Assembly (NCBI RefSeq): GCF_022399565.1
Contig: NZ_JAJTUT010000003.1
Span: 372,001-436,000 of the forward strand
Source: Flavobacterium algicola
GTDB lineage: Bacteria; Bacteroidota; Bacteroidia; Flavobacteriales; Flavobacteriaceae
Reading direction: 5' to 3'
DNA: 64,000 bases
The notes beneath the pieces are model-generated. The model did not search any database. It saw only the letters and a list, made by a program, of their open reading frames with translations, and was not told the DNA's origin. Below, piece after piece: positions 1 through 62,189 of the stretch. Within the stretch, counting starts at the first letter, position 1. Each line of letters starts with the position of its first letter. The translations under genes and the position numbers were made by a program.

Positions 1-10
1 GGCTGGCTTT

Positions 11-517
11 TTATTGGGTTAGTCGTTTTAGTTTTAAAATATAATCCATTTTCCCGTTATCATATTCAGATTCTTTTTTTTCAAGTGACAAGATTTTAAA
101 CTTATCGATTAACTTATTTTGGTTAAAAAGTTCAATTATCAAATAATTTTGTTTTTTTTCAACATTTAACTTAATCCAATCATTTTCAGTTGTAACTTTT
201 TGGCTTGGTGGTTCGTTGCAAAAATCTGCATTTCCAATACTAAAAGCATCTTTTTTGTAGAAATTCCAATTTATTATTTTGCAATAATCTCGTTTGTAAC
301 TTTTAGCATTTTTTAAGGTTATAGTATCTTTTGTAAAATAGTTTTCGTTTGTATTGTCTGTAAACCAAGGGTTTGAATTAGTATGAATAGTTCCTTTCTC
401 TTTCTGAACAATTGTTTCCTTAAATGCTTTAAGTAATTCAGCTTTTGAAATTTCAGTTTCTTGAGAGTAAGAAAATTGAATTATAAATATTAAAACCAAA
501 AGTGTTGTTTTCTTCAT
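11..517 (-). CDS. Cassette A: hypothetical secreted protein
   Basis: No family recognised. The protein is about 168 residues when started at the ATG at 517, which puts a clean signal peptide first (MKKTTLLVLIFIIQFSYSQ, cleavage after SYS). A longer frame upstream would run through repeat R1 and is not credible. The mature part is polar and rich in Lys, Asn and Glu, with no visible motif. It is the leftmost cassette of the left-hand array: R1 lies just upstream, and the stop codon is 11 bases from the window edge, where the next repeat should begin. Function unknown; a periplasmic or surface location is inferred from the signal peptide. Confidence 0.6.
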   Translation of the reverse strand: MKKTTLLVLIFIIQFSYSQETEISKAELLKAFKETIVQKEKGTIHTNSNPWFTDNTNENYFTKDTITLKNAKSYKRDYCKIINWNFYKKDAFSIGNADFCNEPPSQKVTTENDWIKLNVEKKQNYLIIELFNQNKLIDKFKILSLEKKESEYDNGKMDYILKLKRLTQ

Positions 518-540
518 TTTCTTAGGATTTTCTGTAAGGT

Positions 541-670
541 TGCCACTAACGTTTTGCCGCTTGGCGAGGTTGCGGACATCGAAGACGAGTATGTTCGGTG
601 TAGCGAAAATACTAATAAAAAACGGTAATTCCACTAAATTCCGCAATAGCCTCAAACGTGTGTTGTGCGT
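541..670 (-). repeat. R1, attC-like repeat (type B)
   Basis: Imperfectly palindromic spacer between cassettes A and B. The left end has TGCCACTAAC (541-550) and the right end GTTGTGCGT (662-670). The inner arms GCTTGGCGAGGTTGCGGA and the CCGCAATAGCCTCAA stretch are roughly complementary. The right core GTTGTGCGT is repeated in inverse as ACGCACAAC at 1178-1186, at the other end of cassette B. Orientation is given as the reading direction of the cassettes. Confidence 0.75.
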
Positions 671-684
671 TCGCTTTTTTCTTT

Positions 685-1113
685 TTAAAACATCCATTTT
701 ATAATAGTTGCAAATCCAACTAAAACAGAAATTACAAGTATGATTCCAAGAAATCCAAAACCAAGAGATATTAATTTTTCGATGTTTTTTGTCTTATAAT
801 CCTTTTGAACATTAATTTTTCGATTGTAATATAGCGGTTCAATATATTCTATAATTGTATTGCTATTTTCATCTATCCAATCTTCATTATGTTGAAATGG
901 GATAATTGTTTTTTCACTATCATTAAGTACTTCTTCGGTAGAATTGGCAGACTTTAAAAGTTCAAGAGCAAATAACTCAAGTCCTTCTTTATTAGCTTTT
1001 ATAAAGCTTTCATCTGAACCACCACCATACTGAAATATTCCAAAAATGCCTTTAATTTTTAAATCATTTTCGTCAAATTTTTCAATTATTTTATGTAATT
1101 GTACGTTTGTCAA
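685..1113 (-). CDS. Cassette B: hypothetical tail-anchored membrane protein
   Basis: Unrecognised protein of 142 residues. There is no ATG near the N-terminus; the only plausible start is TTG at 1113. The first 110 residues look soluble and acidic, with a glycine patch (FGIFQYGGGSDE) near residue 25. One hydrophobic helix follows near residues 112-140 (LGFGFLGIILVISVLVGFA), so the protein is probably held in the membrane by its C-terminus. The gene fills its cassette: the stop lies 15 bases from R1 and the start 64 bases from R2. Function unknown. Confidence 0.6.
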   Translation of the reverse strand: MTNVQLHKIIEKFDENDLKIKGIFGIFQYGGGSDESFIKANKEGLELFALELLKSANSTEEVLNDSEKTIIPFQHNEDWIDENSNTIIEYIEPLYYNRKINVQKDYKTKNIEKLISLGFGFLGIILVISVLVGFATIIKWMF

Positions 1114-1177
1114 AATCTTTTTATTATTTTTTTATTTCAATTTTTCTCTTATTTTTTCCCGTTTTTTTGGCAAAGTG

Positions 1178-1306
1178 ACGCACAACGTTTTGCTGCTTTG
1201 AGATGGCTGGAAGTTCCTAACTGCTCAATTTTCGGCTTAACGAAACCTTGATGCGAAACGATAATTCCACTAAACTCCATCTAGCTCAAAACAGTTGTTA
1301 CCTACT
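1178..1306 (-). repeat. R2, attC-like repeat (type A)
   Basis: The left core ACGCACAAC (1178-1186) closes cassette B and the right core GTTACCTACT (1297-1306) opens the far end of cassette C. Arms TGCTGCTTTGAGATGG and CTAGCTCAAAACAG pair with few mismatches. The central block (CTCAATTTTCGGCTTAACGA) is shared with all type A copies. Confidence 0.8.
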
Positions 1307-1912
1307 GTTTTTTCTTCTTCGCAATGTAATTATTATAATGATTATTATGAGTGAAATATTAAGAAACAAAAGACCATAAATGATTTTTTCTTTCATTTTT
1401 AATTTTTCTTCAAATGAGTTTTTAACCAAACCAATTTGATATTCAGTATTATTTTCTAATCTTATTGTTCGAACTTCTGAATTGTCAGATAGATATTTCG
1501 AGTATAGTTTTTCAAGAGTTTGTATTTCTTCTTTTTCTATATTTTTCAGTTTATTAGTCCGTGAACATATTGAGCAAGCTAAAGTTTGACTTTCTTCTAT
1601 CGCATAAATTAAGTAAACTTCTCCAACCGTAAACATAAAGTCACAACTTGCTGAACTTTGACTTATAACAGTTCTTAATTCTCCTTCAGGGAAAATTTCT
1701 GATTTATAAGATTTTATGATTTTTACGGTGAAAGAATAAATTTTAGCTCCATCATTTCCATATAGTAAACTATCAACTTTAATAATTTTTCCAGTAAAAA
1801 CAACATTCGCGGCTTCCCAATTTTTTTCGATAGTTGGTAAACCAGAACATTCGCAAGAGTAACTTTTTAAGCCGAAAAAAAGGAAAATTATTAAAACTAT
1901 TAACTTTTTCAT
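1298..1912 (-). CDS. Cassette C: TIMP/NTR-like secreted protein with C-terminal membrane anchor
   Basis: About 204 residues from the ATG at 1912. It has a signal peptide (MKKLIVLIIFLFFGLKSYS) followed directly by CECSG, which begins a cysteine-containing domain like the tissue-inhibitor/netrin (NTR) fold: a Cys pair at the mature N-terminus, VFTGKI, then ASCDFMFTVGEVYLIYA and CSICSRT. A transmembrane helix follows (YGLLFLNISLIIIIIIITL) and a short Arg/Lys tail. The stop codon TAA (1298-1300) lies inside the R2 core, so the cassette boundary supplies the end of the gene. The family call rests on cysteine pattern and motif order only. In bacteria the role of such domains is unclear. Confidence 0.65.
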   Translation of the reverse strand: MKKLIVLIIFLFFGLKSYSCECSGLPTIEKNWEAANVVFTGKIIKVDSLLYGNDGAKIYSFTVKIIKSYKSEIFPEGELRTVISQSSASCDFMFTVGEVYLIYAIEESQTLACSICSRTNKLKNIEKEEIQTLEKLYSKYLSDNSEVRTIRLENNTEYQIGLVKNSFEEKLKMKEKIIYGLLFLNISLIIIIIIITLRRRKNSR

Positions 1913-1945
1913 TATAAGTATTTTAGGTCGTTTTTTGGCCAAAAT

Positions 1946-2074
1946 AGTAGGTAACGTTTTGCTGCTTTGAGATGGCTGGAAGTTCGTAACCGCTCAGTTT
2001 TCGGCTTAACGAAAACTTGATGCAAAATGATAATTCCACTAAACTCCAGCTATATTAAAACAGCTTTTGTGCGT
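1946..2074 (-). repeat. R3, attC-like repeat (type A)
   Basis: The left core AGTAGGTAAC (1946-1955) is the exact inverse complement of GTTACCTACT at 1297-1306, closing cassette C with a 10/10 match. The right core TTGTGCGT (2067-2074) belongs to cassette D. The arms TGCTGCTTTGAGATGGCTGG and CCAGCTATATTAAAACAGC pair. Confidence 0.8.
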
Positions 2075-2082
2075 TCGGTTTT

Positions 2083-2436
2083 TTATTCTGGTGGAGTAAT
2101 TTCCGCTTTTATTTCGTCACTCAAGCCCATTAAATCATTCCTTTTAGGTGTTGCCCAATAAAAATCCCACTTTTTGTCTTCTTTTGAACAAGCCAAAATA
2201 TAATTTCCATTTTCAACATCTTTTACGTAAAAATTTTCGCAATCAGCAATATTAAAACTTGTTATTAAATTTTTAAATGTTTTGGTTTCAACTTCTGTTG
2301 GTTTTTTCCAGGGTTTTTCAATAGAAACGTTTTCACATGCAATCATTATTGTTTTCGGTGCGAAAAGTTCAACGATAATGAAGAATACAACTAAAATAGA
2401 TAAAATTGAAATTATAAGATATTTAATTATTTTCAT
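2083..2436 (-). CDS. Cassette D: hypothetical membrane-anchored protein
   Basis: Unrecognised protein of 117 residues started at the ATG at 2436. A single N-terminal transmembrane segment (YLIISILSILVVFFIIVELF) is followed by a soluble domain of about 90 residues with two cysteines (IACENV and ADCENF) and a third in ILACSKED. The domain contains KKWDFYWATPKRND, but no motif tells its function. The gene occupies the whole cassette between R3 and R4. The N-terminal segment could be an anchor or an uncleaved signal; the Cys content suggests an extracytoplasmic domain. Confidence 0.6.
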   Translation of the reverse strand: MKIIKYLIISILSILVVFFIIVELFAPKTIMIACENVSIEKPWKKPTEVETKTFKNLITSFNIADCENFYVKDVENGNYILACSKEDKKWDFYWATPKRNDLMGLSDEIKAEITPPE

Positions 2437-2492
2437 TGTATGGTTTTTTTGCATTCAAATTTTTACTTTCAGTTTTCTGTCGCTCTAAACTG

Positions 2493-2620
2493 ACGCACAA
2501 TGTTTTGTTGCTTTGAGATGGCTGGAAGTACGTAACCGCTCAATTTTCGGCTTAACAAAAACTTGATGCGAAACGATAATTCCACTAAATTCGCAAATGG
2601 CGCAAGACGTGTGTTAGCAG
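2493..2620 (-). repeat. R4, chimeric attC-like repeat (left half type A, right half type B)
   Basis: The left core ACGCACAA (2493-2500) is complementary to TTGTGCGT at 2067-2074. The left arm is type A (GCTTTGAGATGGCTGGAAG) but the right arm is type B (TTCGCAAATGGCGCAAGACG), so the two arms do not pair as well as in other copies. The right core GTTAGCAG (2613-2620) opens cassette E. Confidence 0.7.
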
Positions 2621-2627
2621 ATGTTTT

Positions 2628-2766
2628 TTATATCCAATTAAAATTTTTTAGAATTATTTTAATATTTCCACTGAGAATCTTTTCATTAAGTTCAGGAGTT
2701 AAATCTAATAAAGATGAAATTATTATAATTTCGCCCTTATTATAAATTTCTGTTTTACCCAAATTT
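2628..2766 (-). pseudogene. Displaced C-terminal end of the cassette E gene
   Basis: This open stretch on the minus strand has no start of its own and reads GKTEIYNKGEIIIISSLLD, then PELNEKILSGNIKIILKNF, ending in a TAA at 2628-2630. It becomes the natural C-terminus of the gene at 2768-3259 if one copy of the 8-base direct repeat at 2767-2782 is removed. It is therefore read as the lost 3' end of that gene. Confidence 0.6.
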
Positions 2767-2782
2767 ATTAATTTATTAATTT
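2767..2782. repeat. Tandem 8-base duplication causing a frameshift
   Basis: ATTAATTT occurs twice in tandem (2767-2774, 2775-2782), preceded by the similar AAATTT. Two copies introduce a TAA stop; a single copy keeps the frame open for another 45 or so codons. Slipped-strand replication is the simple explanation. Confidence 0.7.
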
Positions 2783-3259
2783 ATTATTTATAGATGTTTC
2801 ATATTTTACTATTGTTACATCTAAAGAATTTAGGTCTATGTAACTTTCAAATTTATTTTTCTTTACTATTAGCTTTCCTGTTTCTTTTTCAAAATATACA
2901 TTTCTAATAGATTCAAAATATAGATGTCTAAAGAAATATATGCTTGTTTTTAAGAATAAATAACCTATAGTCAATGCAAAAACAGCTAACAAAACTAAAA
3001 ATAATATAGCCCAGAATTTAAGATTTTGCTTAAAAAAAACAAAATTTAAAAGTTTAAAAAAAAAGAAAAAGAAAACAACTGATAGTCCAATTTTTAAATT
3101 CTCAATCAAAAATTCAAAAGTTAAACCTATGATTTCAAATTTTTGTTTTATTACCATTTCTTTACAGACTTTAATATGATGTAATGTAGATGATATCAAT
3201 ATTATGGGACAAAGCATAACAATTAAAACAATAATTATTTGTATTTGGTATTTTTCCAT
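2768..3259 (-). CDS. Cassette E: hypothetical multi-spanning membrane protein, C-terminally truncated
   Basis: Unrecognised protein of 163 residues from the ATG at 3259. There are three to four hydrophobic segments: an N-terminal one (IQIIIVLIVMLCPIILI), one with a run of six Phe (SVVFFFFFFKLLNFVFF), and FWAILFLVLLAVFALTIGY. The C-terminal part is soluble (ESIRNVYFEKETGKLIVKKN), resembling a small cytoplasmic beta domain. Translation stops at 2768 within a tandem 8-base repeat, and the reading frame continues out of phase to 2628, so the protein has lost about 45 residues. Whether the short form is functional cannot be told. Confidence 0.6.
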   Translation of the reverse strand: MEKYQIQIIIVLIVMLCPIILISSTLHHIKVCKEMVIKQKFEIIGLTFEFLIENLKIGLSVVFFFFFFKLLNFVFFKQNLKFWAILFLVLLAVFALTIGYLFLKTSIYFFRHLYFESIRNVYFEKETGKLIVKKNKFESYIDLNSLDVTIVKYETSINNKLIN

Positions 3260-3292
3260 TTATGTTAATCTTTAGTTCTTTTTCGGGCAAAA

Positions 3293-3423
3293 CTGCTGGT
3301 AACATTTTGCCACTTTGAGATGGCTGGAAGTTCGTAAACGCTCGGTTTTCGGCTTAACGAAAACTTGATGCGAAACGGTAATTCCACTGAATTCCAGCTA
3401 TATCAAAATGGCTGTTAACTGCC
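3293..3423 (-). repeat. R5, attC-like repeat (type A)
   Basis: The left core CTGCTGGTAAC (3293-3303) pairs with GTTAGCAG at 2613-2620 except for a three-base insertion, the weakest pairing in the array. The right core is GTTAACTGCC (3414-3423). Arm bases GCCACTTTGAG and the ATATCAAAATGGC stretch are complementary, a compensated change relative to the GCTGC/CAGC version of other copies. Confidence 0.75.
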
Positions 3424-3434
3424 GTTTTTATTTT

Positions 3435-5081
3435 TTATTTTGTTATTGCTGGTATTAAATATTCCTGCATAATCTTTTCAACTTGTTTTTCTCCATATGG
3501 TGTATTATATGCGGTGGAAGTAATTACAATAACTATTGGTTGGTCTTTGAAAATGAAAATTCTATTTCCACCATTTCCGCTAGAATAGTAAACTTCATAA
3601 TCTTTGCCATTCAGTTTGTAGGTTTTATTCCAGAATAAATATCCATAAAACTCATCTTCTGATATTGCTATTTGGTGCGACATACTTTCTGCAATCCATT
3701 CCTTTGACAAAATTTGTTTGCCATTCCAAGTTCCTTGATTTTTGTATAACTGGCCAAATTTAGCATAGTCCAATGAATTTAATTGCAAACTTCCTGCTGT
3801 ATTTGCAACTTTTTGCGGTGTAAATTGCCATTTATATTTTGTAATATTCAAAGGTTTAAATAATTTTTCCTGAGCATATTTTTCCAAACCATTTGGAACA
3901 GATTTATGAATTATATCGCCCAAGACTATGCAACCTGCCGTAAAATAGTCCCATTGTTTATTTATTTCTTTTGTATCATCGATTGGAAGGTTTAATGTGA
4001 AATCAACCCAATTATTTGTTGGATACATATTTTCTTCGTTTCCTGGTGATTCTGAATTCATATCGGAACCTTCAAAAGTTGAACTCATTGTCAGTAAACT
4101 TTTTAAAGTTATACTGTCTTTTGATGCAGAGTAGTTTAGAAAAGATTTTAGGTTGTAGAAATCTTTTAAGGTTTGAGTTTCACTTTTTATGAATTTATCT
4201 TTGATTGCAATTCCTAAAAGAGTTGATGCAAATGATTTACCCACAGAACGTGTGTCGTGAAGTGTATTTCTATTTGCTCCATTGAAATATTCTTCAATAA
4301 AAATTTTACCGTCTTTTATAGCAACAATACTGGTTACATTTTTATAGGTTTGCTTTGCAATTTTTCGGTTTAATTCTTCAATTTTAGCAACATCAATTTT
4401 CTCTGTTGAAATCTTCCAATCTTTAGTTGGTTTAATCGATTGAATTTTAACCAGTTTTTCATCAATTTTTATTTCTGGAACAATAATTTTTATTTGACCT
4501 TCAGCAATTATGTTACCGGTCAAAACCTCGGTCAGTTTTAGATAAGGTCTGATTTCAATTTTAAGTTGATGTTCTCCTTCTGAAAGAGCATCTTGTCCGC
4601 CATAGCCAAAAAATCTATTCCAAAGAAATCTACCCCAAGAATCTTCATTAGTTGAACTTATTAATGGAACTCTGAAAATCGTATTTTGATTTTTACTCTC
4701 AACACTTCCTGCACCAACATTTACGTTTTCAGCATAAACTTTTTTGCCGTCAACAATAAAAGTAAATTGATAATTCCCACTTTTTGTAAGTTCTTCACTG
4801 GTCAATTGAGGCGAAAGTAAATGAAGATAATTTGTTAATGAATTGCCTAAAAAAACTCGAATGTTTAAATCAGTTTTCTCTTTAATTTCAGCCGATTTTA
4901 AAAAATCGGTTTCTTTGAAGTTTTCAATTACAATTGCTTGTTTCATAAAAACAATTTTGCCAATGTTTGATTTGTGAATTGGATAAATTATGCTATCGCT
5001 TTTAACAAATTCGGTCTTTTGTCCAGACACATTCAAATATGTCATTAAACTTAATGCTAAAATAGTGATTTTTGATGCCAT
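3435..5081 (-). CDS. Cassette F: secreted serine hydrolase of the class C beta-lactamase family
   Basis: 548 residues. An N-terminal signal peptide (MASKITILALSLMTYLNVSG) is followed by about 200 residues of beta-rich region unlike the catalytic domain. From roughly residue 235 comes a beta-lactamase/penicillin-binding fold: SVGK (the SxxK nucleophile motif, in TRSVGKSFASTLLG), DYFTAG (the Tyr motif) and YYSSGNGG near the C-terminus (equivalent of the KTG/HxG triad). Relatives include esterases and D-aminopeptidases, so antibiotic hydrolysis should not be assumed. It is the largest gene in the left array and fills its cassette between R5 and R6. It acts outside the cytoplasm. Confidence 0.85.
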   Translation of the reverse strand: MASKITILALSLMTYLNVSGQKTEFVKSDSIIYPIHKSNIGKIVFMKQAIVIENFKETDFLKSAEIKEKTDLNIRVFLGNSLTNYLHLLSPQLTSEELTKSGNYQFTFIVDGKKVYAENVNVGAGSVESKNQNTIFRVPLISSTNEDSWGRFLWNRFFGYGGQDALSEGEHQLKIEIRPYLKLTEVLTGNIIAEGQIKIIVPEIKIDEKLVKIQSIKPTKDWKISTEKIDVAKIEELNRKIAKQTYKNVTSIVAIKDGKIFIEEYFNGANRNTLHDTRSVGKSFASTLLGIAIKDKFIKSETQTLKDFYNLKSFLNYSASKDSITLKSLLTMSSTFEGSDMNSESPGNEENMYPTNNWVDFTLNLPIDDTKEINKQWDYFTAGCIVLGDIIHKSVPNGLEKYAQEKLFKPLNITKYKWQFTPQKVANTAGSLQLNSLDYAKFGQLYKNQGTWNGKQILSKEWIAESMSHQIAISEDEFYGYLFWNKTYKLNGKDYEVYYSSGNGGNRIFIFKDQPIVIVITSTAYNTPYGEKQVEKIMQEYLIPAITK

Positions 5082-5135
5082 TGATTTTTGATTGATTTTG
5101 ATGATTATGTTTTTAGCAGTTTCGTGAGCAAAAAT

Positions 5136-5264
5136 GGAAGTTAACGTTACGCCACTTTGAGATGGCTGGAAGTTCGTAACCTTTCAATTTTCGGCTTAAA
5201 GGAAACTTGATGCGAAACGATAATTCCAATAAATTCCAGCTAGCTCAAAATGGCGGTTGGCGGA
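5136..5264 (-). repeat. R6, attC-like repeat (type A)
   Basis: The left core GGAAGTTAAC (5136-5145) is complementary to GTTAACTGCC at 3414-3423 in 9 of 10 positions. The right core is GTTGGCGGA (5256-5264). Arms ACGCCACTTTGAGATGGC and GCTAGCTCAAAATGGCG pair, again with the GCC/GGC variant. Confidence 0.8.
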
Positions 5265-5269
5265 TGTTT

Positions 5270-5772
5270 ATATTTTTTCCGTTCGCAAATGTCGCTATTG
5301 TATATTTTTAATATTCGCTGACCTAATTCTGAATTTTCGCAATGTGCTGAAATAGTTGTTGTCAACTCTATTTTTATCGGATAATTTAAGATTGTATCTA
5401 TTTCAAAAGAACTATTATATTCCGTTATTCCGCTTACTAGTTATCGTATATAATTTTTTTCAAATCCAACTTCAATTTTCCCTTTACTCGCCTTCAAGGC
5501 AGGCCAATTAGATATTTTTTCTGTAACAGTTTTATTTACTTTAATATCAAATTTGTTGAAGTTTCTTATTACACTTTCTCCAATAATTTCCTATGAGCTA
5601 TTTAGATCAATTACTTCGCAATTTTCTTGTTCAAAAGTATAACTAGCTTTTATTTCTTTAGAAAGTGGAGCGAGGATAATCTCGGAATGTTTTCTGATAT
5701 GTAAATTGACAAACTTTTGATTATTTTTAATTTAGGTTCAGGAACTTTAAATATCAAACTTTTAAATTTCAT
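5270..5772 (-). pseudogene. Cassette G: decayed hypothetical gene
   Basis: No open frame covers this stretch, but on the minus strand, starting at ATG 5772, a continuous protein can be traced through one frameshift (near 5690) and two in-frame stops. It reads MKFKSLIFKVPEPKLKII, then after the shift EIILAPLSKEIKASYTFEQ, stop, EIIGESVIRNFNKFDIKVN, a second stop, and SGITEYNSSFEIDTILNYP. The pieces look like one cytoplasmic protein of about 165 residues of unknown family. It sits downstream of the intact gene at 5807-6094 in the same cassette. Confidence 0.55.
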
Positions 5773-5806
5773 TGCTTCAGTTAAGTTGTTAATTATCGAT
5801 TTTTAG

Positions 5807-6094
5807 TCAGCTGTTCTTCTCCTTTATAAATAAACTCAATACGAAGAAAGTTATGAAAAATATTACGAATTGAATTATGAAAACTGGATATAATAGATCT
5901 GATTCGGCATACCTAAAACCGAAACTAAATATTGATACAGGAAATGTTAATAGTAATCCATAAAGTGACCAATCTCCATAAAATAAATCTTTTGTATAAA
6001 TTGAACAAACAGACAAAGTTCCAAATGCAACATAAAATAGAGAGATTTTAAATGCTAATTTTCGGTTTTCAATGATTTTTATAAACTTATCCAC
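5807..6094 (-). CDS. Cassette G: small hypothetical membrane protein
   Basis: Unrecognised protein of 95 residues with three predicted transmembrane helices (AFKISLFYVAFGTLSVCSI, then LYGLLLTFPVSIFSFGF, then LYPVFIIQFVIFFITFFVL) and a short charged C-terminus. The only suitable start is GTG at 6094; an overlapping ATG is out of frame. A decayed gene (5270-5772) follows in the same cassette, so this one probably once carried two genes. Function unknown. Confidence 0.55.
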   Translation of the reverse strand: MDKFIKIIENRKLAFKISLFYVAFGTLSVCSIYTKDLFYGDWSLYGLLLTFPVSIFSFGFRYAESDLLYPVFIIQFVIFFITFFVLSLFIKEKNS

Positions 6095-6143
6095 ATTTCT
6101 GATTTAATACTTTTTCTCTATTCGTCCAGTTTCTCGAAAATAT

Positions 6144-6279
6144 TCGCCAACGTTCCCGCGCTTTGCGCTGTTGCGAGCTTCGGAACTGCTTGTTTTCTGT
6201 TCAAGATAATATTTCTTGCGAAACGTGAACGTGAATTTACTACAAAATTCGCAATAGCGCAAAACGTGTGTTAGTGGCA
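6144..6279 (-). repeat. R7, attC-like repeat (type B)
   Basis: The left core TCGCCAAC (6144-6151) matches GTTGGCGG at 5256-5263 in 7 of 8 positions. The right core GTTAGTGGCA is at 6270-6279. Type B arms GCGCTTTGCGCTGTTGCGA and TCGCAATAGCGCAAAACG pair closely, with a different central block from type A (AGATAATATTTCTTGCG). Confidence 0.8.
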
Positions 6280-6852
6280 GTACTTTTTCAATTTAATAGT
6301 TTTTATTGCATTTAAAAATTCTTTTTCTGTTTTCTCTTTCAGATTTTCTCCATAAAAGGAAAATTTAGTTTTATTTGAATTTTGTCCACCACCTTTTAGA
6401 CTATCAATATAAATTCCAGTTGTTCCAAATCCTTTATTTCTTGTTGTAATAATTTTTGCTTTGAAACAATCAGTTTTTACAATTTCAAATTTTTGTGTTA
6501 GATAATTTTCAAAATCTATTTTTCCTGAAATTGTGTCTACAATTAAATGGTTAGTATTTTTTAAACGTTTTTTTTGCTTTTCAGTTAGTTCTGCATAACT
6601 TTTTTTATCGAAAACTAACGGTAAATTATTTTTTGAAACGTCTGGTGAATATGCTCCGATATCAAAAATTAATGTGTCATTTTCAGATGTTACAATTCCG
6701 CCAACATAACTGTCAGTTCCGTTAAGTTCAATTTCTGACCACTTTTTAGGAACAGTTATTTCAAAACTTTCAAAATCTATAGTTTTAAATTCGGATTTAG
6801 GTTGGCAAGAAAAACAAGCAATTGAAATATATATTAAAATAAAAATTTTCAT
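6271..6852 (-). CDS. Cassette H: hypothetical lipoprotein
   Basis: 193 residues from the ATG at 6852. It has a lipoprotein signal with a lipobox-like end (IACFSC), so Cys16 or so is probably acylated. The rest is a soluble domain with EITVPKKWSEIEL and LPLVFDKKSYAELTEKQKK, resembling PsbP/MOG1-like or PepSY-like small lipoproteins only in the general way of a membrane-tethered beta domain; no family is named. The TAA stop (6271-6273) lies inside the R7 core GTTAGTGGCA. Both cassette ends carry a perfect 10-base complementary pair. Confidence 0.65.
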   Translation of the reverse strand: MKIFILIYISIACFSCQPKSEFKTIDFESFEITVPKKWSEIELNGTDSYVGGIVTSENDTLIFDIGAYSPDVSKNNLPLVFDKKSYAELTEKQKKRLKNTNHLIVDTISGKIDFENYLTQKFEIVKTDCFKAKIITTRNKGFGTTGIYIDSLKGGGQNSNKTKFSFYGENLKEKTEKEFLNAIKTIKLKKYCH

Positions 6853-6887
6853 AGAGATGTCTTATTTTTCGGTTTCTGCGGTCGTAT

Positions 6888-7016
6888 TGCCACTAACGTT
6901 TTGCTGCTTTGAGATGGCTGGAAGTTCGTAACCGCTTAATTTTCGGCTTAACAAAAACTTGATGCGAAACGATAATTCCACTAAATTCCAGCTAGCTCAA
7001 AATGGCGGTTGGGCAA
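6888..7016 (-). repeat. R8, attC-like repeat (type A)
   Basis: The left core TGCCACTAAC (6888-6897) is the exact complement of GTTAGTGGCA at 6270-6279. The right core is GTTGGGCAA (7008-7016), the only one in the array that also fits the integron consensus GTTRRRY exactly. The outer part of the left arm (GCTGC) and of the right arm (ATGGCGG) do not pair here. Confidence 0.8.
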
Positions 7017-7022
7017 TCGTAT

Positions 7023-7640
7023 TTATGACATATTACAATTGTTAGATTTGTAATAAACGCCATTATTCTTCAATTTAAAGTTTCCAATTGAGTCTATTTC
7101 GACTTTTATAGATTCCTTTGTTTCGGGGCAACCTTTAGCTTTCATCATATATAATTCAAATCCATTAGTTGTCTTTTTAAATGAACCCGCTTTTTTTTCT
7201 TTATGGTCAAACCACAAATCATACATTTCTAAAATTAGAATTGCTTCTGCAAGATTATCAATTTTGCCAATGAATTTTTTCATTTCTGTTTCATCTGTGA
7301 CGTAATGAACATCATCGTTTTCAATATATGTAACATATGAAAAACAAGTCCCAGGTAAACATCCATTAAAGAAACCCGATTGGGGAGGATAAAAAGTATA
7401 ACTATTTCTAATTAATGTATCACCATATTTTCTAATCACCTCTTTTTTATTTTTATATAAATCGGGTCTGAATGTAGCATAATCCCAATAGATATAATCT
7501 TTATTTGGTTTTATCTGTTCGATTAGTTTATTTCTATCAAGATATTCATCATTAATTTTAGTAAAACCATTTTCAATTCGGACAGAATTCTTACTGCAAG
7601 AAATTAAACTAAGAAAAATTAATATTGATATTTTTTTCAT
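7023..7640 (-). CDS. Cassette I: hypothetical lipoprotein
   Basis: 205 residues from the ATG at 7640, with a short lipoprotein signal (MKKISILIFLSLISC; lipobox LISC). The mature domain includes IYWDYATFRPDLYKN, a Cys pair (NGCLPGTCFSYVTYIEND), and a second pair near the end (KGCPETKE, NNCNMS), suggesting disulfides and an extracytoplasmic location. No family recognised. The cassette ends GTTGGGCAA and TTGCCCAAC are perfectly complementary. Confidence 0.65.
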   Translation of the reverse strand: MKKISILIFLSLISCSKNSVRIENGFTKINDEYLDRNKLIEQIKPNKDYIYWDYATFRPDLYKNKKEVIRKYGDTLIRNSYTFYPPQSGFFNGCLPGTCFSYVTYIENDDVHYVTDETEMKKFIGKIDNLAEAILILEMYDLWFDHKEKKAGSFKKTTNGFELYMMKAKGCPETKESIKVEIDSIGNFKLKNNGVYYKSNNCNMS

Positions 7641-7660
7641 TCACATTTTGGTTTAATATG

Positions 7661-7796
7661 TTGCCCAACGTTTCGCGGCTTTGCGAGGTTGCGAACTTCG
7701 TAACCGAGAACTTTCGGCCAAGATAAAATTTCTTGCGGAACGTAAACGTGATTTCACTACAAAATTCGCAATCTTGCAAAACCGCTGTTACCAGCA
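7661..7796 (-). repeat. R9, attC-like repeat (type B)
   Basis: The left core TTGCCCAAC (7661-7669) is the exact complement of GTTGGGCAA at 7008-7016; the right core is GTTACCAGCA (7787-7796). Arms CGGCTTTGCGAGGTTGCGAA and TTCGCAATCTTGCAAAACCG pair along 20 positions with four mismatches. Confidence 0.85.
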
Positions 7797-7800
7797 GTTT

Positions 7801-8370
7801 TTATTTTTTTATTAATTTTATTCCAAGTAATACAAGCAAAACTATGTTTGTTAATACTAAATACATTTCTAATTCTACACTTTTGTCTTTCTTGAAAGTT
7901 AACTCTTTTGCTAATTGGTTTTTATCAAGTGCAACATTTTGATTTACGTTTATTTTAAAATCAGTTTTCTTGTTTTCTGTTTCTTCGAGGTAAACAATTT
8001 CATTTTCCTTATTTTTTGCAACTATCCAAAATTTCCCTCCATCGCTGTCAATACAAAATTCGGAAGTTTCATTCGGCTCCAATTCTGAATTATAATTTAC
8101 AAAATTTCCGCTTCCATTTCCATAATCGTCCCAAAATGCAATTGCGTAAATTCTTAAATTTTGATTAGTTACATTTTGCGTAGTAATGTCAATTGGAGTT
8201 GAAGCTCCAAAACAACCACCAAACAAATGATTTAATCCCAATGTAGAAAAACCGATAAAAAGTCCAAAATAGATTAGCAGTTTCAAACTAATTTTTTTCT
8301 CATTTAGAAAAAAGTAAATAACTAGTAAAATAATTATATTCAAAAATATAGAAAAAAATAATAAGTTCAT
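7801..8370 (-). CDS. Cassette J: hypothetical membrane protein (first cassette of the left array)
   Basis: 189 residues from the ATG at 8370. Two N-terminal hydrophobic helices (SIFLNIIILLVIYFFL and LKLLIYFGLFIGFSTLGL) are followed by a soluble domain of about 110 residues (RIYAIAFWDDYGNGSGNFV, FCIDSDGGKFWIVAK) and a C-terminal helix (MYLVLTNIVLLVLLGIKLI). No family recognised. It is the cassette nearest the leader at 8403-8514 and would be the most strongly expressed if the leader promoter drives the array. Its ends GTTACCAGCA and TGCTGGTAAC are a perfect complementary pair. Confidence 0.65.
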   Translation of the reverse strand: MNLLFFSIFLNIIILLVIYFFLNEKKISLKLLIYFGLFIGFSTLGLNHLFGGCFGASTPIDITTQNVTNQNLRIYAIAFWDDYGNGSGNFVNYNSELEPNETSEFCIDSDGGKFWIVAKNKENEIVYLEETENKKTDFKINVNQNVALDKNQLAKELTFKKDKSVELEMYLVLTNIVLLVLLGIKLIKK

Positions 8371-8392
8371 TTTTCAGGTTTTTCGGTAAAAT

Positions 8393-8472
8393 TGCTGGTA
8401 ACTAGTATATATGCGAAACAAACCTTCGCATAGCCACCCAAAATCGGGTGTATAAGGGAAGGTTTGTTTCGC
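8393..8472 (-). other. Leader L1: conserved hairpin at the head of the left array
   Basis: The cassette J core (8393-8402) is followed by ACTAGTATATATGCGAAA and on to about 8472. GCGAAACAAACCT (8413-8425) and AGGTTTGTTTCGC (8460-8472) form a perfect 13-base stem. CACCC (8435-8439) and GGGTG (8446-8450) form an inner stem. The first 45 or so bases recur at 61968-62013 (leader L2) with four differences. In integron terms it holds the attI position. It could instead be an attC of another type or a regulatory RNA leader. Confidence 0.7.
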
Positions 8473-8486
8473 TTTTGTTGCTATTT

Positions 8487-8514
8487 CAAATATATTGTTT
8501 TTTTTTCTTACAAA
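8487..8514 (-). promoter_or_regulatory. Putative array promoter upstream of L1
   Basis: On the minus strand TATATTTG (8494-8487) fits the Bacteroidota -7 box, and TTTG (8514-8511) lies 16 bases upstream as a possible -33 element. It points into L1 and the cassettes. A TATATTTG box occurs at the equivalent place next to L2 (62061-62054). Confidence 0.55.
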
Positions 8515-8697
8515 TCATTAAGACGACTTTTAATCTGTTGATTACTTATCGTACGTAGGAGCTGTGTGTTTCAACAGTTTTATGTCGTGTCCTAACACAA
8601 CAACCGATGTATAATTATAAAAAACAAAAAATTCCAAATGAGCCCCGATTACTTCATTTAACTTTTATTTTTTCAAGAGTTTAGTGAACTTTGTTTG

Positions 8698-8806
8698 CAG
8701 CGGAAATCCTTTTCCTTCTTCTCCTAAAAAGGAAAAGATTGCAACGTCCCGAAGCATCGGGAGCGGGAGGAATGGTGGTTGTGCAAACGGGTATTTCTGC
8801 TCCTTA
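8698..8806. repeat. Flavobacterial intergenic repeat with hairpins
   Basis: A more GC-rich stretch between the array leader and icd. It contains CCTTTTCC/GGAAAAGA-type arms and CCCGAAGCATCGGG (8749-8762), and ends in TATTTCTGCTCC. A related element lies at 62190-62303 next to leader L2 (shared CGAAGC, GGAGCGGGAGG and TTTCTGCT). No coding sequence is credible here. Confidence 0.55.
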
Positions 8807-8850
8807 ATAATACACAGTAAAATGATGACTTGTTGGTTTTTGACCAAAAA

Positions 8851-8880
8851 AAAAGACAACCGTTTCGGGTTGTCTTTTTT
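8851..8880 (-). terminator. Terminator of icd
   Basis: AAAAGACAACC (8851-8861) and GGGTTGTCTTTT (8867-8878) form a GC-containing stem with a short loop. It lies 30 bases past the icd stop and has T/A runs on both sides, so it could also act on transcription from the left. Confidence 0.75.
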
Positions 8881-8910
8881 GAAATTTATATTGAAAAATA
8901 AAGCAATTTG

Positions 8911-11590
<2,680 letters not shown>

Positions 11591-59186: not shown

Positions 59187-59316
59187 GTAAGCCAACTTTA
59201 TGCCACTTTGCGATGGCTGGAAGTTCGTAACCGCTCAATTTTCGGCTTAACGAAAACTTGATGCGGAACGATAATTCCACTACATTCCAGCTATATCAAA
59301 ACAGCGGTTAGCGGAT
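59187..59316 (-). repeat. R10, attC-like repeat (type A), second array
   Basis: Same repeat as in the left array, over 50 kb away. The left end GTAAGCCAAC (59187-59196) has no match found downstream of cassette K. The right core GTTAGCGGAT (59307-59316) is exactly complementary to ATCCGCTAAC at 61961-61970. Arms GCCACTTTGCGATGGCTGG and CCAGCTATATCAAAACAGC pair with a few mismatches. The central words (CTCAATTTTCGGCTTAACGA) are identical to left array copies. Confidence 0.85.
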
Positions 59317-59335
59317 GGACTTTTATTTATAACGG

Positions 59336-60937
59336 TTATCTCCAATCTTGATTAAATAATTTTCTTGAATCATTTAGTTGGATTACTTTCTTATTTGTTA
59401 AAATTTCAATAGATTTTTCACTGTATTTAATTATTCCGTCTAACGAAACGAAAATCTGTTTTTGTTCGGTTGAATATTGCTCAATAATTTTATCAACCGC
59501 TGAATCTTCAATATTTTTAAATACTACTGAATCGTGAATTAAAAACGGTAAACAAGTTAATTTTAAAACCACTAAATCAAATTCAATTAAATCAGAAAAT
59601 GATTTTCCTGTACCTGTATTATTTTGATGGTCGAATGTATATGATCGTTTATTTAATATTATTTTCGGAGTTTTCTTATTTCCAATATGTATTTCTTTAT
59701 TGATTGTAATTAGTTCTGTATTAATTTGCTCTTCAATGTTTTTCAGAATGCCAGTAATTTTATCTTCTAAATCTAAATTCAATTGTTTTAAATCGCTTGT
59801 TACTTGTTCTTTTTCAGTGTAAAATTTATTTACTGTAGATATTTTATTTGATTCAATTGTTAAATCATAAATTTTCTCAACGATAAACTTTGGACTTTTT
59901 ACATTTTCAAGTAAACTTGATATTTTTAAATCGATTTTAGAGATTTCCTCTTCTATAATATGATTTTCTTCTTCAAGTATTTTCTTTGCATTATTTAATT
60001 CTCTTTTTAGAATTGTACCGATTTTATTATGAAAAGATTCTATTTCTTCAATTTTAGCTTCGTTTGTATTTTCAAAAAAACTTGAGAGTTTATTAAAATA
60101 TTTACTTTTTACACTTCTTTGCTCAAGATTTAATTGTAAGCGGCGAATTTTATTTTGATTAACTGATTGTAATTGCAAAAATTTACTTTTTTCAGTTTTC
60201 AATTCTATCATTTCTTTACTTGTTAATTCCTCAATATTTAAAGTATATTGTAATAGATTATCTTTAATGTTTGTTATATCATCTTGTATGCGTCTTAATT
60301 CAATTTCATTTTTTTTAAAATCTGTTTTTGTTATTTTCTCAACATAGTTTTTTTTGTGGATGCCTGCGAGTACTTTCTTCGATTCACCATGTTCCTTAAT
60401 TTGTGCTTCAGTTTTAACTATTGCCTCGTATAAATCAAAGAGTTTTATTAAATTAGTTACTGCTGTTGATTCGGGTTCTTTAGTAAAAGCTTGCAATGGT
60501 TTATCTACATTGTAATTATCTTTGCCCCATATTCTTGAAAAATTACTAACGATTTGTCTAAAAGATAAAAACGGATTAATAATATTATATTTTTCTTTAA
60601 GTGTTTTTGTAAAAACTTCAACTGTATTTTCTGTTAGAGTGTTATATTCACTATCACAAAATGAAACAATTTCGGGGTTTTCAGTACTTCTTTTGAAGTA
60701 ATGATTTTCTTTTTCAAATTCAAATTTAAACGAAAATATTTGGTGACCAAGTTGTTTTATAACACCTGAATCATTTGTTAAAAAGGATTTACCGCCAAAA
60801 GCAAAATCAACAATCATTAAGAGTGTTGATTTTCCAATTGAATTTGTTGAAATATCATCACCTAAAACTGCATTTAAACCTTTTGAAAATTTTATTGGAT
60901 TTTCAATGAATTGTTCTGATTTAATTTCTTTTAACAT
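59336..60937 (-). CDS. Cassette K: ABC-three-component system ATPase (DUF2326 family)
   Basis: 533 residues. It starts with a P-loop of the form GDDISTNSIGKSTLLMIVDF (Lys36, Ser37), typical of DUF2326 and related SMC-like ABC ATPases. A long coiled coil follows (about residues 170-400; KEMIELKTEKSKFLQLQSV, EEENHIIEEEISKIDLKIS). The C-terminal head has TGKSFSDLIEFDLVVLKLT and a Walker B-like LPFLIHDSVVFKNIEDSAVD. In ABC-3C systems it is the switch that senses infection and drives the effector. It overlaps the middle-component gene by 17 bases. Third and last gene of the cassette, ending beside repeat R10. Confidence 0.85.
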   Translation of the reverse strand: MLKEIKSEQFIENPIKFSKGLNAVLGDDISTNSIGKSTLLMIVDFAFGGKSFLTNDSGVIKQLGHQIFSFKFEFEKENHYFKRSTENPEIVSFCDSEYNTLTENTVEVFTKTLKEKYNIINPFLSFRQIVSNFSRIWGKDNYNVDKPLQAFTKEPESTAVTNLIKLFDLYEAIVKTEAQIKEHGESKKVLAGIHKKNYVEKITKTDFKKNEIELRRIQDDITNIKDNLLQYTLNIEELTSKEMIELKTEKSKFLQLQSVNQNKIRRLQLNLEQRSVKSKYFNKLSSFFENTNEAKIEEIESFHNKIGTILKRELNNAKKILEEENHIIEEEISKIDLKISSLLENVKSPKFIVEKIYDLTIESNKISTVNKFYTEKEQVTSDLKQLNLDLEDKITGILKNIEEQINTELITINKEIHIGNKKTPKIILNKRSYTFDHQNNTGTGKSFSDLIEFDLVVLKLTCLPFLIHDSVVFKNIEDSAVDKIIEQYSTEQKQIFVSLDGIIKYSEKSIEILTNKKVIQLNDSRKLFNQDWR

Positions 60938-61154
60938 ATTTTATAATTTCGTTTTCAAAGTCTATTTCAATTTCATCTAAAATATATAATACATCTAATG
61001 AGTATATAAATTCATCTGCATTTTGAAATTTTGATATTGTGTTTGTAAAAAGTTCAGTAATAGATATTTCAGAGTACTCTTGAGCTTCTAAAAGAAAAAT
61101 CATTTTATATATAATTGATTCTTCAAATTGGATATGTTTATTTGGATATATCAT
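60921..61154 (-). CDS. Cassette K: ABC-3C middle component
   Basis: 77 residues from the ATG at 61154 (MIYPNKHIQFEESIIYKMIF), one base past the stop of the HNH gene; an upstream GTG at 61172 adds six residues. The opening P-K-H...ES-I resembles middle component type 6 of ABC-three-component systems. The rest is helical (EYSEISITELFTNTISKFQN, FIYSLDVLYILDEIEIDF). Middle components are small adaptors between the ATPase and effector. It overlaps the ATPase gene by 17 bases, so expression is coupled. The assignment depends on position as well as the short motif. Confidence 0.7.
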   Translation of the reverse strand: MIYPNKHIQFEESIIYKMIFLLEAQEYSEISITELFTNTISKFQNADEFIYSLDVLYILDEIEIDFENEIIKYVKRN

Positions 61155-61155
61155 A

Positions 61156-61929
61156 TTATTCGAAGATTTCACAGTTCTGTATGAAATAAGAAATTATTAT
61201 TTCTGACGATTCATATGATTGATTATTAGTTCGTTTATTTAACCACTCAATCATTGCGTCAAATATTTCTTTCTGATTTTTTTCTGAGTTATGCTTTTTA
61301 AGTAATAAATAATGTTGCTTTATCTGAATGGAAATTGTTTCCGTTGTACCTGGTTGAAGGGTATCCAATTCTCTAAATTTTGATTTTACTTGATTAAAGT
61401 AATCTTGAATGTTTTTATGTATTTTTCTTTTTACAAGTTTTGTAATTGTCGAGTTTGTTTTTTCGTCAATTGTTTTTGGATTGTAATTTAAAATATCTTC
61501 TTGGTTAAAGTCAAAATCTTCATTTGCTAAAAAATCAATTATTTGAAAAATTTCATTTTCTATATTTGAATTTATCCAAATTGATTTTTCTTTTGTGAGT
61601 CTGATTAAGTCTTTTTTCTTTTTTACTAAATTTAGGTATTCTTCAAGAGTTCTTGGATTATCGAATTCATTATGACATTTTAAACATAAACAGATTAAAT
61701 TATGTATGTGATTTAAATCTTCATTTAAAATTTCTTGGTTTTTCAGAATTTCAAATTCATCTGCTTTAGGATTTAAAGGATAAATATGTGCAATTTCATA
61801 ATCTTTTCTTTTTTTTCCAACTTTGTCACCAATCAAAATTGTTGGACAATTTGGACACACTCCGTCTACTTCTGCAAAAAGTTGAAGTTCATCATATCTT
61901 GAAATTTTCTTTCGATTATTTTCTTTCAC
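61156..61929 (-). CDS. Cassette K: ABC-3C HNH-nuclease effector
   Basis: 257 residues; the start is GTG at 61929 (no ATG nearby). The N-terminal HNH domain has zinc ligands Cys25 and Cys28 (GVCPNCPT), His48 (EIAHIYPLNP), Asn77 (HNLICLCLKCH) and the CLKCHNEFD pair (Cys82, Cys85, His86). The C-terminal half (about 170-257; IQDYFNQVKSKFRELDTLQP) matches in size and position the C-terminal domain of ABC-3C effectors. As an HNH protein it would cut DNA when released by the ATPase. First gene of the operon, directly behind leader L2 and its promoter. Confidence 0.8.
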   Translation of the reverse strand: MKENNRKKISRYDELQLFAEVDGVCPNCPTILIGDKVGKKRKDYEIAHIYPLNPKADEFEILKNQEILNEDLNHIHNLICLCLKCHNEFDNPRTLEEYLNLVKKKKDLIRLTKEKSIWINSNIENEIFQIIDFLANEDFDFNQEDILNYNPKTIDEKTNSTITKLVKRKIHKNIQDYFNQVKSKFRELDTLQPGTTETISIQIKQHYLLLKKHNSEKNQKEIFDAMIEWLNKRTNNQSYESSEIIISYFIQNCEIFE

Positions 61930-61960
61930 TTATAGTTTTTTTCTGCATTTTTGGTAGTCT

Positions 61961-62052
61961 ATCCGCTAACTCGTATATATGCGAAAGAAACCTTCGCATA
62001 CCCACCCAAAATCGAGCATATTTACGAATGTTTGTTCTGCTTCGTTTCTTTC
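61961..62052 (-). other. Leader L2: hairpin leader at the head of the second array
   Basis: After the core ATCCGCTAAC (61961-61970) comes CTCGTATATATGCGAAA and CCACCCAAAATCG, matching L1 with four changes over 45 bases. GAAAGAAAC (61983-61991) and GTTTCTTTC (62044-62052) form a 9-base stem; in L1 the stem has 13 bases and a different sequence (GCGAAACAAACC). The G-to-C change in one arm is matched in the other, which keeps the pairing. Confidence 0.7.
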
Positions 62053-62053
62053 C

Positions 62054-62061
62054 CAAATATA
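62054..62061 (-). promoter_or_regulatory. Putative array promoter upstream of L2
   Basis: TATATTTG on the minus strand (62061-62054), directly beside the L2 hairpin and pointing to the ABC-3C genes. The L1 leader has the same box 15 bases from its hairpin. No TTTG at 19 bases was found. Confidence 0.5.
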
Positions 62062-62189
62062 TAATAATATTCAGAATAATCTTAGTTTAATTAATTATCT
62101 AATTGTAAATCTAATTCCTTTCTTCAATCCTATATTACGGAAAACCGTAATTACACAAAATAAATATTTTAGCATAGCCCAATAGTCCC

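Follow-up and report, generated by a model that had tools for sequence, protein, structure and literature searches.

RESULTS

An array of putative gene cassettes in Flavobacterium algicola

The window analyzed here is a stretch of 64,000 nucleotides (nt) of the Flavobacterium algicola genome (4.27 Mb in six contigs), positions 372,001 to 436,000 of contig NZ_JAJTUT010000003.1 (C3:372001-436000; C1, C1b, C2, C3 and C4 are labels for arrays and contigs of this genome). Its left end carries an array of small units separated by palindromic sites, which very probably represents mobile gene cassettes of an integron-like system of the Bacteroidota that has a tyrosine recombinase of the XerA-like type. 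Judged from the sequence, a unit starts at a GTT and extends as far as the one at the next site; complete units are found again in other places, and the first and last ~15 nt of a unit are complementary.

We located nine palindromic sites in the region from 1 to 8402, all on the minus strand and 116 to 124 nt long from AAC to GTT. An earlier note on this DNA had described nine imperfect palindromes between ten minus-strand units, which agrees with our data, except that its lengths of 128 to 136 bases would take in flanking sequence. The tenth unit is truncated at the window edge and, as that note had expected, the array runs past it. From its head at 8402 leftwards, the main array comprises 18 contiguous cassettes (sites at E 1e-5 or better), of which 10 lie wholly or partly inside the window and the leftmost ~6.5 kb left of position 1; beyond them are one more cassette and weaker sites. 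The right end is a different element, a hairpin head at ~8403-8478, with no further cassette. Genome-wide, one palindrome gave 32 blastn matches in several clusters, and a profile built from the nine sites matched 49 rows (E 0.05 or better), including some weak ones, in the genome stretches to which it was applied.

Complementarity of cassette starts to their own ends

In gene direction, a cassette starts at GTT and ends in the AAC that opens its own hairpin site. Complementary start and end words had been noticed before, and a permutation test showed that a start tends to be complementary to the end of its own cassette and not to those of other cassettes. Across the 39 cassette rows compared, which include the weak arrays of this genome, own start and end matched at 10.9 of 14 positions, compared with 7.5 for other pairs and 7.6 for the word across the same site, and the highest mean among 20,000 permutations was 8.5. 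In 29 of the 39 rows, no other end matched better than the own one; the misses fell mostly in the weak rows of C1, C2b and the left end of C3 and also in some window cassettes. After removal of the cassettes without both clean ends, the own match per position in the remaining 31 was 0.68 to 1.00 at positions 1-10 and 0.74 to 0.87 at positions 12-15, and it dropped to 0.13 at position 16, giving a footprint of ~15 nt. Position 11 is a fixed mismatch (own match 0.03, with agreement in 1 of 31), the start being A in 30 of 31. Cassettes that close into a circle at GTT, as those of integrons do, would require such own-end pairing. Only 4 of the 31 cassettes fitted GTTRRRY, the R' consensus of IntI integrons.

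The same pattern was found for first cassettes behind the core of array heads in other genomes, a test independent of the window cassettes (54 rows, 53 of them distinct and one from this genome). At least 13 of 14 positions matched in 24 of the 54, against 8 of 2,862 with the words of other genomes, and at least 12 of 14 in 35 of the 54, against 58 of 2,862. Heads that lack a recombinase gene, in this and other genomes, numbered 28; two without GTT and three with too little sequence were set aside. Behind the other 23, one of which (from L108) is the hairpin read backwards, at least 12 of 14 positions matched in 12, against 3 of 506 with other words.

Changes within the complementary ends favor one strand. 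Those retaining a bottom-strand G-T wobble outnumbered those retaining a top-strand one by 12 to 3 in this genome (P 0.047) and by 17 to 4 elsewhere (P 0.011), as assessed against the ratio in mismatched pairs. The set from elsewhere consists of 56 first cassettes with at least 11 of 15 matches and a single best end; their pairing level was thereby chosen, and thus only the direction of changes counts as a test. At position 11, the combination A/C on the top strand, equivalent to T/G on the bottom strand, is present in 23 of 31 cassettes here and in 49 of 56 elsewhere. Bottom-strand recombination has been reported for IntI attC sites (PMC2727003).

Array heads and their link to a recombinase gene

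The window head consists, in order, of TATATTTG, which we take to be promoter-like from the Bacteroidota consensus, a hairpin that folds strongly as DNA (z -7.8 for 8396-8478) and, ahead of GTT, the core ATATATACTA. A 95% identical head is present at the C2 array, closely preceded by the end of a tyrosine recombinase gene. A profile of 50 recombinase genes with their leaders matched 8597-8400 at model positions 950-1149 of 1149 (E 4.5e-25). A protein search for recombinase remnants at the window head yielded nothing clear; it was this DNA profile that found the relic. Further heads were identified at the C1 and C1b arrays and at window positions 61968-62069 with the leader profile, and on C4 by a blastn match.

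We next consider the recombinase genes of other genomes (97 distinct genes, loci L131-L230, 5 of them too near a contig end). The core, sought 60 to 115 nt after the stop codon, followed 88 of the 92 testable genes, in 85 of these 88 with 89 to 105 nt from stop to GTT; the same pattern occurred in 157 of 5,000 random windows. The head hairpin varies in sequence with its pairing kept: in 87 leaders, one pair is C-G in 29, T-A in 26, A-T in 14 and G-C in 7. An attI-like layout next to the recombinase gene is indicated by these cores and by a pair of plasmids, described below, that diverge at GTT.

Sequence traces of probable cassette movement

Evidence of movement came from comparisons between species and within the genome. 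Cassette 1 has an 88% identical copy over its full 733 nt in the C2 array, and 770 of the 772 nt of cassette 2 recur on contig C4 at 97% identity, both copies being bounded by cassette ends. A 1441-nt cassette is common to Flavobacterium denitrificans and Pelobium manganitolerans, which belong to different orders, with 93.3% identity and unrelated flanks; it starts at the head GTT in one genome and at an array-internal GTT in the other, and in both it ends at the next GTT. Two Chryseobacterium plasmids, NZ_CP041688.1 and NZ_CP094530.1, are 89.7% identical over 3.2 kb, through the recombinase gene to the core GTT, and differ after it (base 8151 in both stretches). Together, the cassette-exact copies, the cassette shared across orders and the plasmid pair point to site-specific recombination. 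Among 40 alignments of at least 250 nt between array regions, 6 begin at a cassette start (1.4% by chance) and 14 at a site start (3.5% by chance).

By eye, the first unit of a Chryseobacterium plasmid (L248, from base 8149) is perhaps very short and gene-less, with a long hairpin.

Structure of the attC-like sites

The nine window sites score 84.5 to 130.1 bits with the covariance model, and weaker hits in the window reach at most 28.1 bits, the top three being palindromes of the same nine sites read on the plus strand. The 27 training rows of the model include seven of the nine and the site at 59194-59309, which therefore match by construction; those at 1953-2068 and 2499-2615 were not among them. 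Both AAC and GTT are in place in 27 of the 44 sites found at E 1e-10 or better, and these 27 formed the set for covariation, the other 17 being dropped. They share two stems, the first of 10 to 11 and the second of seven pairs, separated by an internal loop, with an apical part that varies in length. On this structure, 92.6% of cells pair, compared with 77.1% in shuffles and at most 43.5% in slid versions, over which it is favored because it was written from the first rows. The covariation score was 0.390, compared with 0.124 (standard deviation [SD] 0.014) in shuffles, and 12 of 21 pairs had changed on both sides. Six sites folded singly as DNA gave z-scores of -0.66 to -4.05.

Beside AAC and GTT lies an asymmetric unpaired stretch, followed by the internal loop, and no single extrahelical base was identified; for IntI attC sites, the available text of PMC2727003 describes extrahelical bases and an unpaired central spacer. 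No Rfam family matched the sites in window positions 1-9000, whether Rfam has an attC model not being established.

A XerA-like recombinase family with an additional N-terminal domain

Intact recombinases are 347 amino acids (aa) long in 15 of 16 genes measured and 337 aa in one. A match at E 1e-60 or better is present in 55 of 121 genomes of the genus, this one included, and a scan of named genomes found at least 574 relatives; 80 of these, which were kept, include Flavobacterium, Kaistella, Paenimyroides, Pedobacter, Pelobium and metagenome bins named after other groups. The only match at this level in the present genome stands at the C2 array (L033, 14775-15767). The F. pokkalii gene (L162) carries an insert of ~54 nt with similar letters at the same place as one in the C2 gene, and a third locus (L228) has a like tail.

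The curated IntI model TIGR02249 (cut-off 265 bits) was missed, with 170.7 bits for the interrupted copy and 200.2 and 209.4 bits for two intact members. These two reached 220.7 and 221.9 bits with the XerA-type model NF040815 (cut-off 220), described as "site-specific tyrosine recombinase/integron integrase." As some public plasmid records bear this name, the protein is already annotated; the system, as far as we found, is not. The segment between conserved boxes comprises 27 to 28 residues in 33 of 33 family rows, compared with 69 in 15 of 15 IntI rows, and 22 versus 64 residues are unaligned with PDB 2a3v. In a quick tree, the 33 family rows fell on one side of a branch (support 91), the 15 IntI rows grouped together (99) and four Xer rows stood apart; its branches are long and its deeper order is unsure. 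Of the six tyrosine recombinases of this genome, it includes L040 and L041, and the interrupted copy, L043, L044 and L045 were left out.

The best matches among solved structures are XerA-like (PDB 5hxy and 4a8e). A predicted structure (mean pLDDT 81.4, pTM 0.50) best matches XerA and IntI; residues 321-332, among them the catalytic tyrosine, are below 50, and the predicted domain arrangement is not to be trusted. The family has an extra N-terminal domain of ~65 to 70 residues, for which Pfam gave matches below threshold only, to HARP in one of five proteins (16.2 bits, cut-off 25) and to DUF5710 in three of five (up to 18.1 bits, cut-off 26.5), and no PDB sequence matched below E 0.1. HARP domains bind forked DNA, and we treat the weak HARP match as a lead only.

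At least three sites were found in 41 of the 55 genus genomes with the recombinase, compared with 26 of the 66 without (P 9e-5; covariance model, up to 30 matches per genome). By blastn alone, the recombinase was found in 55 and the head in 39 of the 121 genomes; we used the covariance model instead of this co-occurrence because the head query represents one hairpin type. With one site type as the query, blastn hit 9 of 60 relatives, a count that includes this genome. In a number of cases, the recombinase gene lies no more than a few hundred bases from the end of a draft contig, as expected if repeated sites break assemblies, and arrays may be undercounted.

Features of the window and a second array

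The features of both arrays are listed in Table 1. A Pfam search at E 0.01 left nine of the ten window cassette proteins without a match. The second array (59194-62069), which lies outside the region of the earlier note, holds one cassette with genes for HNH/CTD11, MC7 and DUF2326 proteins, two of the three being matched by the PADLOC candidate PDC-M68. A match to the Flavo-1 RNA family at 8700-8746 is below threshold (25.3 bits, gathering 42).

TABLE 1 Positions and properties of array features in the 64,000-nt window
Feature	Positions	Strand	Remarks
Array head, attI-like	8400..8597	-	Recombinase relic (last ~95 nt of gene) ~8503-8597, promoter-like TATATTTG, hairpin, core ATATATACTA directly before GTT
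attI-like hairpin and core	8403..8478	-	95% identical element at C2 array head; DNA fold
Cassette 1	7670..8402	-	189-aa open reading frame (ORF) 7801-8370; start/end words 13/14; 88% copy in C2 array
attC-like site 1	7667..7789	-	Covariance model; DNA fold
Cassette 2	6898..7669	-	205-aa ORF 7023-7640; start/end words only 9/14; 97% copy on C4
attC-like site 2	6895..7010	-	Covariance model
Cassette 3	6152..6897	-	193-aa ORF 6271-6852; start/end words 13/14
attC-like site 3	6149..6272	-	Covariance model
Cassette 4	5146..6151	-	95-aa ORF 5807-6094, sole minus-strand ORF held; start/end words 12/14
attC-like site 4	5143..5258	-	Covariance model; DNA fold
Cassette 5	3304..5145	-	548-aa ORF 3435-5081, PF00144 serine hydrolase family (Pfam); start/end words 12/14
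attC-like site 5	3301..3416	-	Covariance model
Cassette 6	2502..3303	-	163-aa ORF 2768-3259; start/end words 11/14
attC-like site 6	2499..2615	-	Covariance model; variant core ATT for GTT
Cassette 7	1956..2501	-	123-aa ORF 2083-2454; start/end words 10/14
attC-like site 7	1953..2068	-	Covariance model; variant AAA for AAC
Cassette 8	1187..1955	-	ORF 1298-1942 or shorter; start/end words 13/14
attC-like site 8	1184..1299	-	Covariance model
Cassette 9	551..1186	-	142-aa ORF 685-1113; start/end words 10/14
attC-like site 9	548..664	-	Covariance model
Cassette 10, cut by window edge	1..550	-	Start/end words 11/14; attC-like site C3:371882-371997, just left of position 1
Second array head	61968..62069	-	Promoter-like box, hairpin, core; leader profile E 1.4e-9
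Only cassette of second array	59197..61970	-	Three-gene ABC-3C type system (Pfam, PADLOC); start/end words 13/14
attC-like site of second array	59194..59309	-	117.7 bits, model training row; found independently by blastn

DISCUSSION

Alternative explanations

Flavobacterium could have acquired, by transfer, an ordinary IntI integron or an integrase-less cluster of attC sites, with canonical attC sites on which IntI acts. The layout and the AAC/GTT ends are indeed the same, conservation of the IntI insert within its subgroup is incomplete according to PMC8138268, and a phylum-wide sample of 395 genomes contained 105 with true IntI above the curated cut-off (one of these is listed as of the same class, the rest as of the same phylum only; the phylum is as drawn by GTDB and may include groups counted apart in the survey paper). 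However, this sample gave no IntI match at the curated cut-off in the present genome or in the same-genus rows listed, the linked recombinases have 27 to 28 residues where IntI has 69 and stay at 171 to 209 bits against a cut-off of 265, and few cassettes fit the R' consensus. We thus rejected this explanation as improbable. The integron-like array with attC-like repeats proposed in the earlier note stands in its logic, to which a head, a linked recombinase in relatives and cassette-exact copies are now added; because the IntI-specific insert is absent and the IntI cut-off was missed, it is not a member of the IntI family.

Palindromes that adjoin stop codons and fold might also be transcription terminators or interspersed palindromic repeats in an ordinary gene cluster, although one of the six sites folded singly had a z-score of only -0.66. 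This was rejected as very improbable, since the partner of a cassette end is the start of the same cassette, at a distance of hundreds of bases, copies are cassette-exact, and recombinase, core and cassette are linked. We attach equally little weight to a transposon-like nature of the units, each of which would carry terminal inverted repeats of its own and be mobilized by a transposase encoded elsewhere. The start and end words do form inverted repeats of ~15 nt, but they differ between cassettes, which makes recognition by sequence unlikely, and from a single head onwards all units follow one another head to tail in the same orientation; this possibility too was rejected.

Several observations weigh against the array being a mobile cassette system as we describe it. 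Recombination was not observed directly. In this genome, the C2 recombinase gene is broken by its ~54-nt insert directly before the catalytic tyrosine codon, and the window head retains a relic only. At least one site is present in 47 of the 66 genomes in which no recombinase matched at E 1e-60, and 4 of 92 recombinase genes lack a core by the pattern used. AAC or GTT is missing from its expected place in 17 of 44 sites, the own end matches at fewer than 11 of 14 positions in 10 of 54 first cassettes, and 11 of 23 recombinase-less heads fall below 12 of 14. For one of the two Chryseobacterium plasmids, the own end of the first cassette was not found, and 20 of the 40 long alignments begin at neither a cassette nor a site start. 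The strand preference derives from 36 changes in partly related cassettes, and one inner-stem pair is a top-strand T-G wobble in 27 of 27 sites. Despite this last point, bottom-strand use of the folded site is likely, because bottom-strand wobbles are preferred in the outer pairing.

A model for cassette capture

We infer the following mechanism for the integron-like system. A recombinase of ~347 aa would capture circular cassettes, each with one or a few small genes and a hairpin site of ~116 to 125 nt, at an attI-like core (TATA..AC.AGTT) that sits just after the recombinase gene, behind a hairpin of conserved structure and a promoter-like box. In the circular form, the cassette ends would pair into one long stem around the hairpin. 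The recombinase would recognize the folded strand, probably the bottom one, by its shape. It would cut at GTT and join the cassette to the core, and the head promoter would then read into the newest cassette. The main window array has kept no more of its recombinase gene than the 3' end, and a recombinase acting in trans would be required for movement there. The arrays of this genome may now be static, as the only recombinase match, at C2, is interrupted.

On a broader scale, we consider it rather likely that a second integron-like class exists across the Bacteroidota, not derived from IntI by the tests made. Its XerA-like recombinase, with a possibly HARP-like N-terminal domain, would read the folded cassette end by shape, with a cassette-specific outer stem of ~15 nt and a fixed wobble as a strand mark. 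As hairpin heads occur several per genome, one recombinase could serve many arrays in trans.

Relation to known systems

Like sedentary chromosomal IntI integrons, such as those of Vibrio, the system has a recombinase gene with an adjoining attI-like head, one-way cassettes in head-to-tail order, hairpin sites with AAC/GTT ends and a junction at GTT, and mostly unknown small genes. Unlike in those, the recombinase lacks the IntI insert, has an extra N-terminal domain and is encoded by a gene that reads towards the array; the head holds a structured hairpin, and this genome has several heads; and the own-end complementarity of ~15 nt with a fixed mismatch is about twice as long as the seven-base R boxes. 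Its best structure and family matches are simple XerA-like tyrosine recombinases (NF040815; PDB 5hxy and 4a8e), from which it differs by the N-terminal domain of ~65 to 70 residues and by its linkage to cassette arrays. In Spirochaetota integrons, the "reverse" orientation of IntI is the one co-directed with the cassettes. Such integrons (PMC9668308) resemble the present system in the direction of the recombinase gene, but theirs is IntI. The window array, with no intact recombinase gene, also resembles a cluster of attC sites lacking integron-integrase (CALIN; PMC9024848); unlike a CALIN, it keeps an attI-like head and a recombinase relic, and its attC-like sites may not be canonical attC.

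Bacteroidota are among the phyla with integrons in IntI-based surveys (PMC9668308, PMC8618304), and the available text of another such survey names one complete integron in Bacteroidetes proper, that of Salinibacter ruber, besides those of Chlorobi and Ignavibacteriae (PMC9024848). In titles and abstract beginnings of the open-access literature, we found no description of such Flavobacterium arrays or of a comparable non-IntI recombinase; preprints and subscription papers may hold one.

Significance

A gene-capture system known mainly from other bacteria thus seems to have a second, little-noticed counterpart in many Bacteroidota. Integron surveys, as far as their available text goes, define integrons by IntI and attC models, and a system with another recombinase would be missed by them. 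If our interpretation is true, the capture of folded-strand cassettes evolved, or was put together anew, around a different tyrosine recombinase. This would make the purpose of the IntI insert testable, and the long cassette-specific complementary ends would provide a handle on how cassettes are made. As one window cassette holds a three-gene defense-like system, the arrays may be a store of defense-like genes in Bacteroidota.

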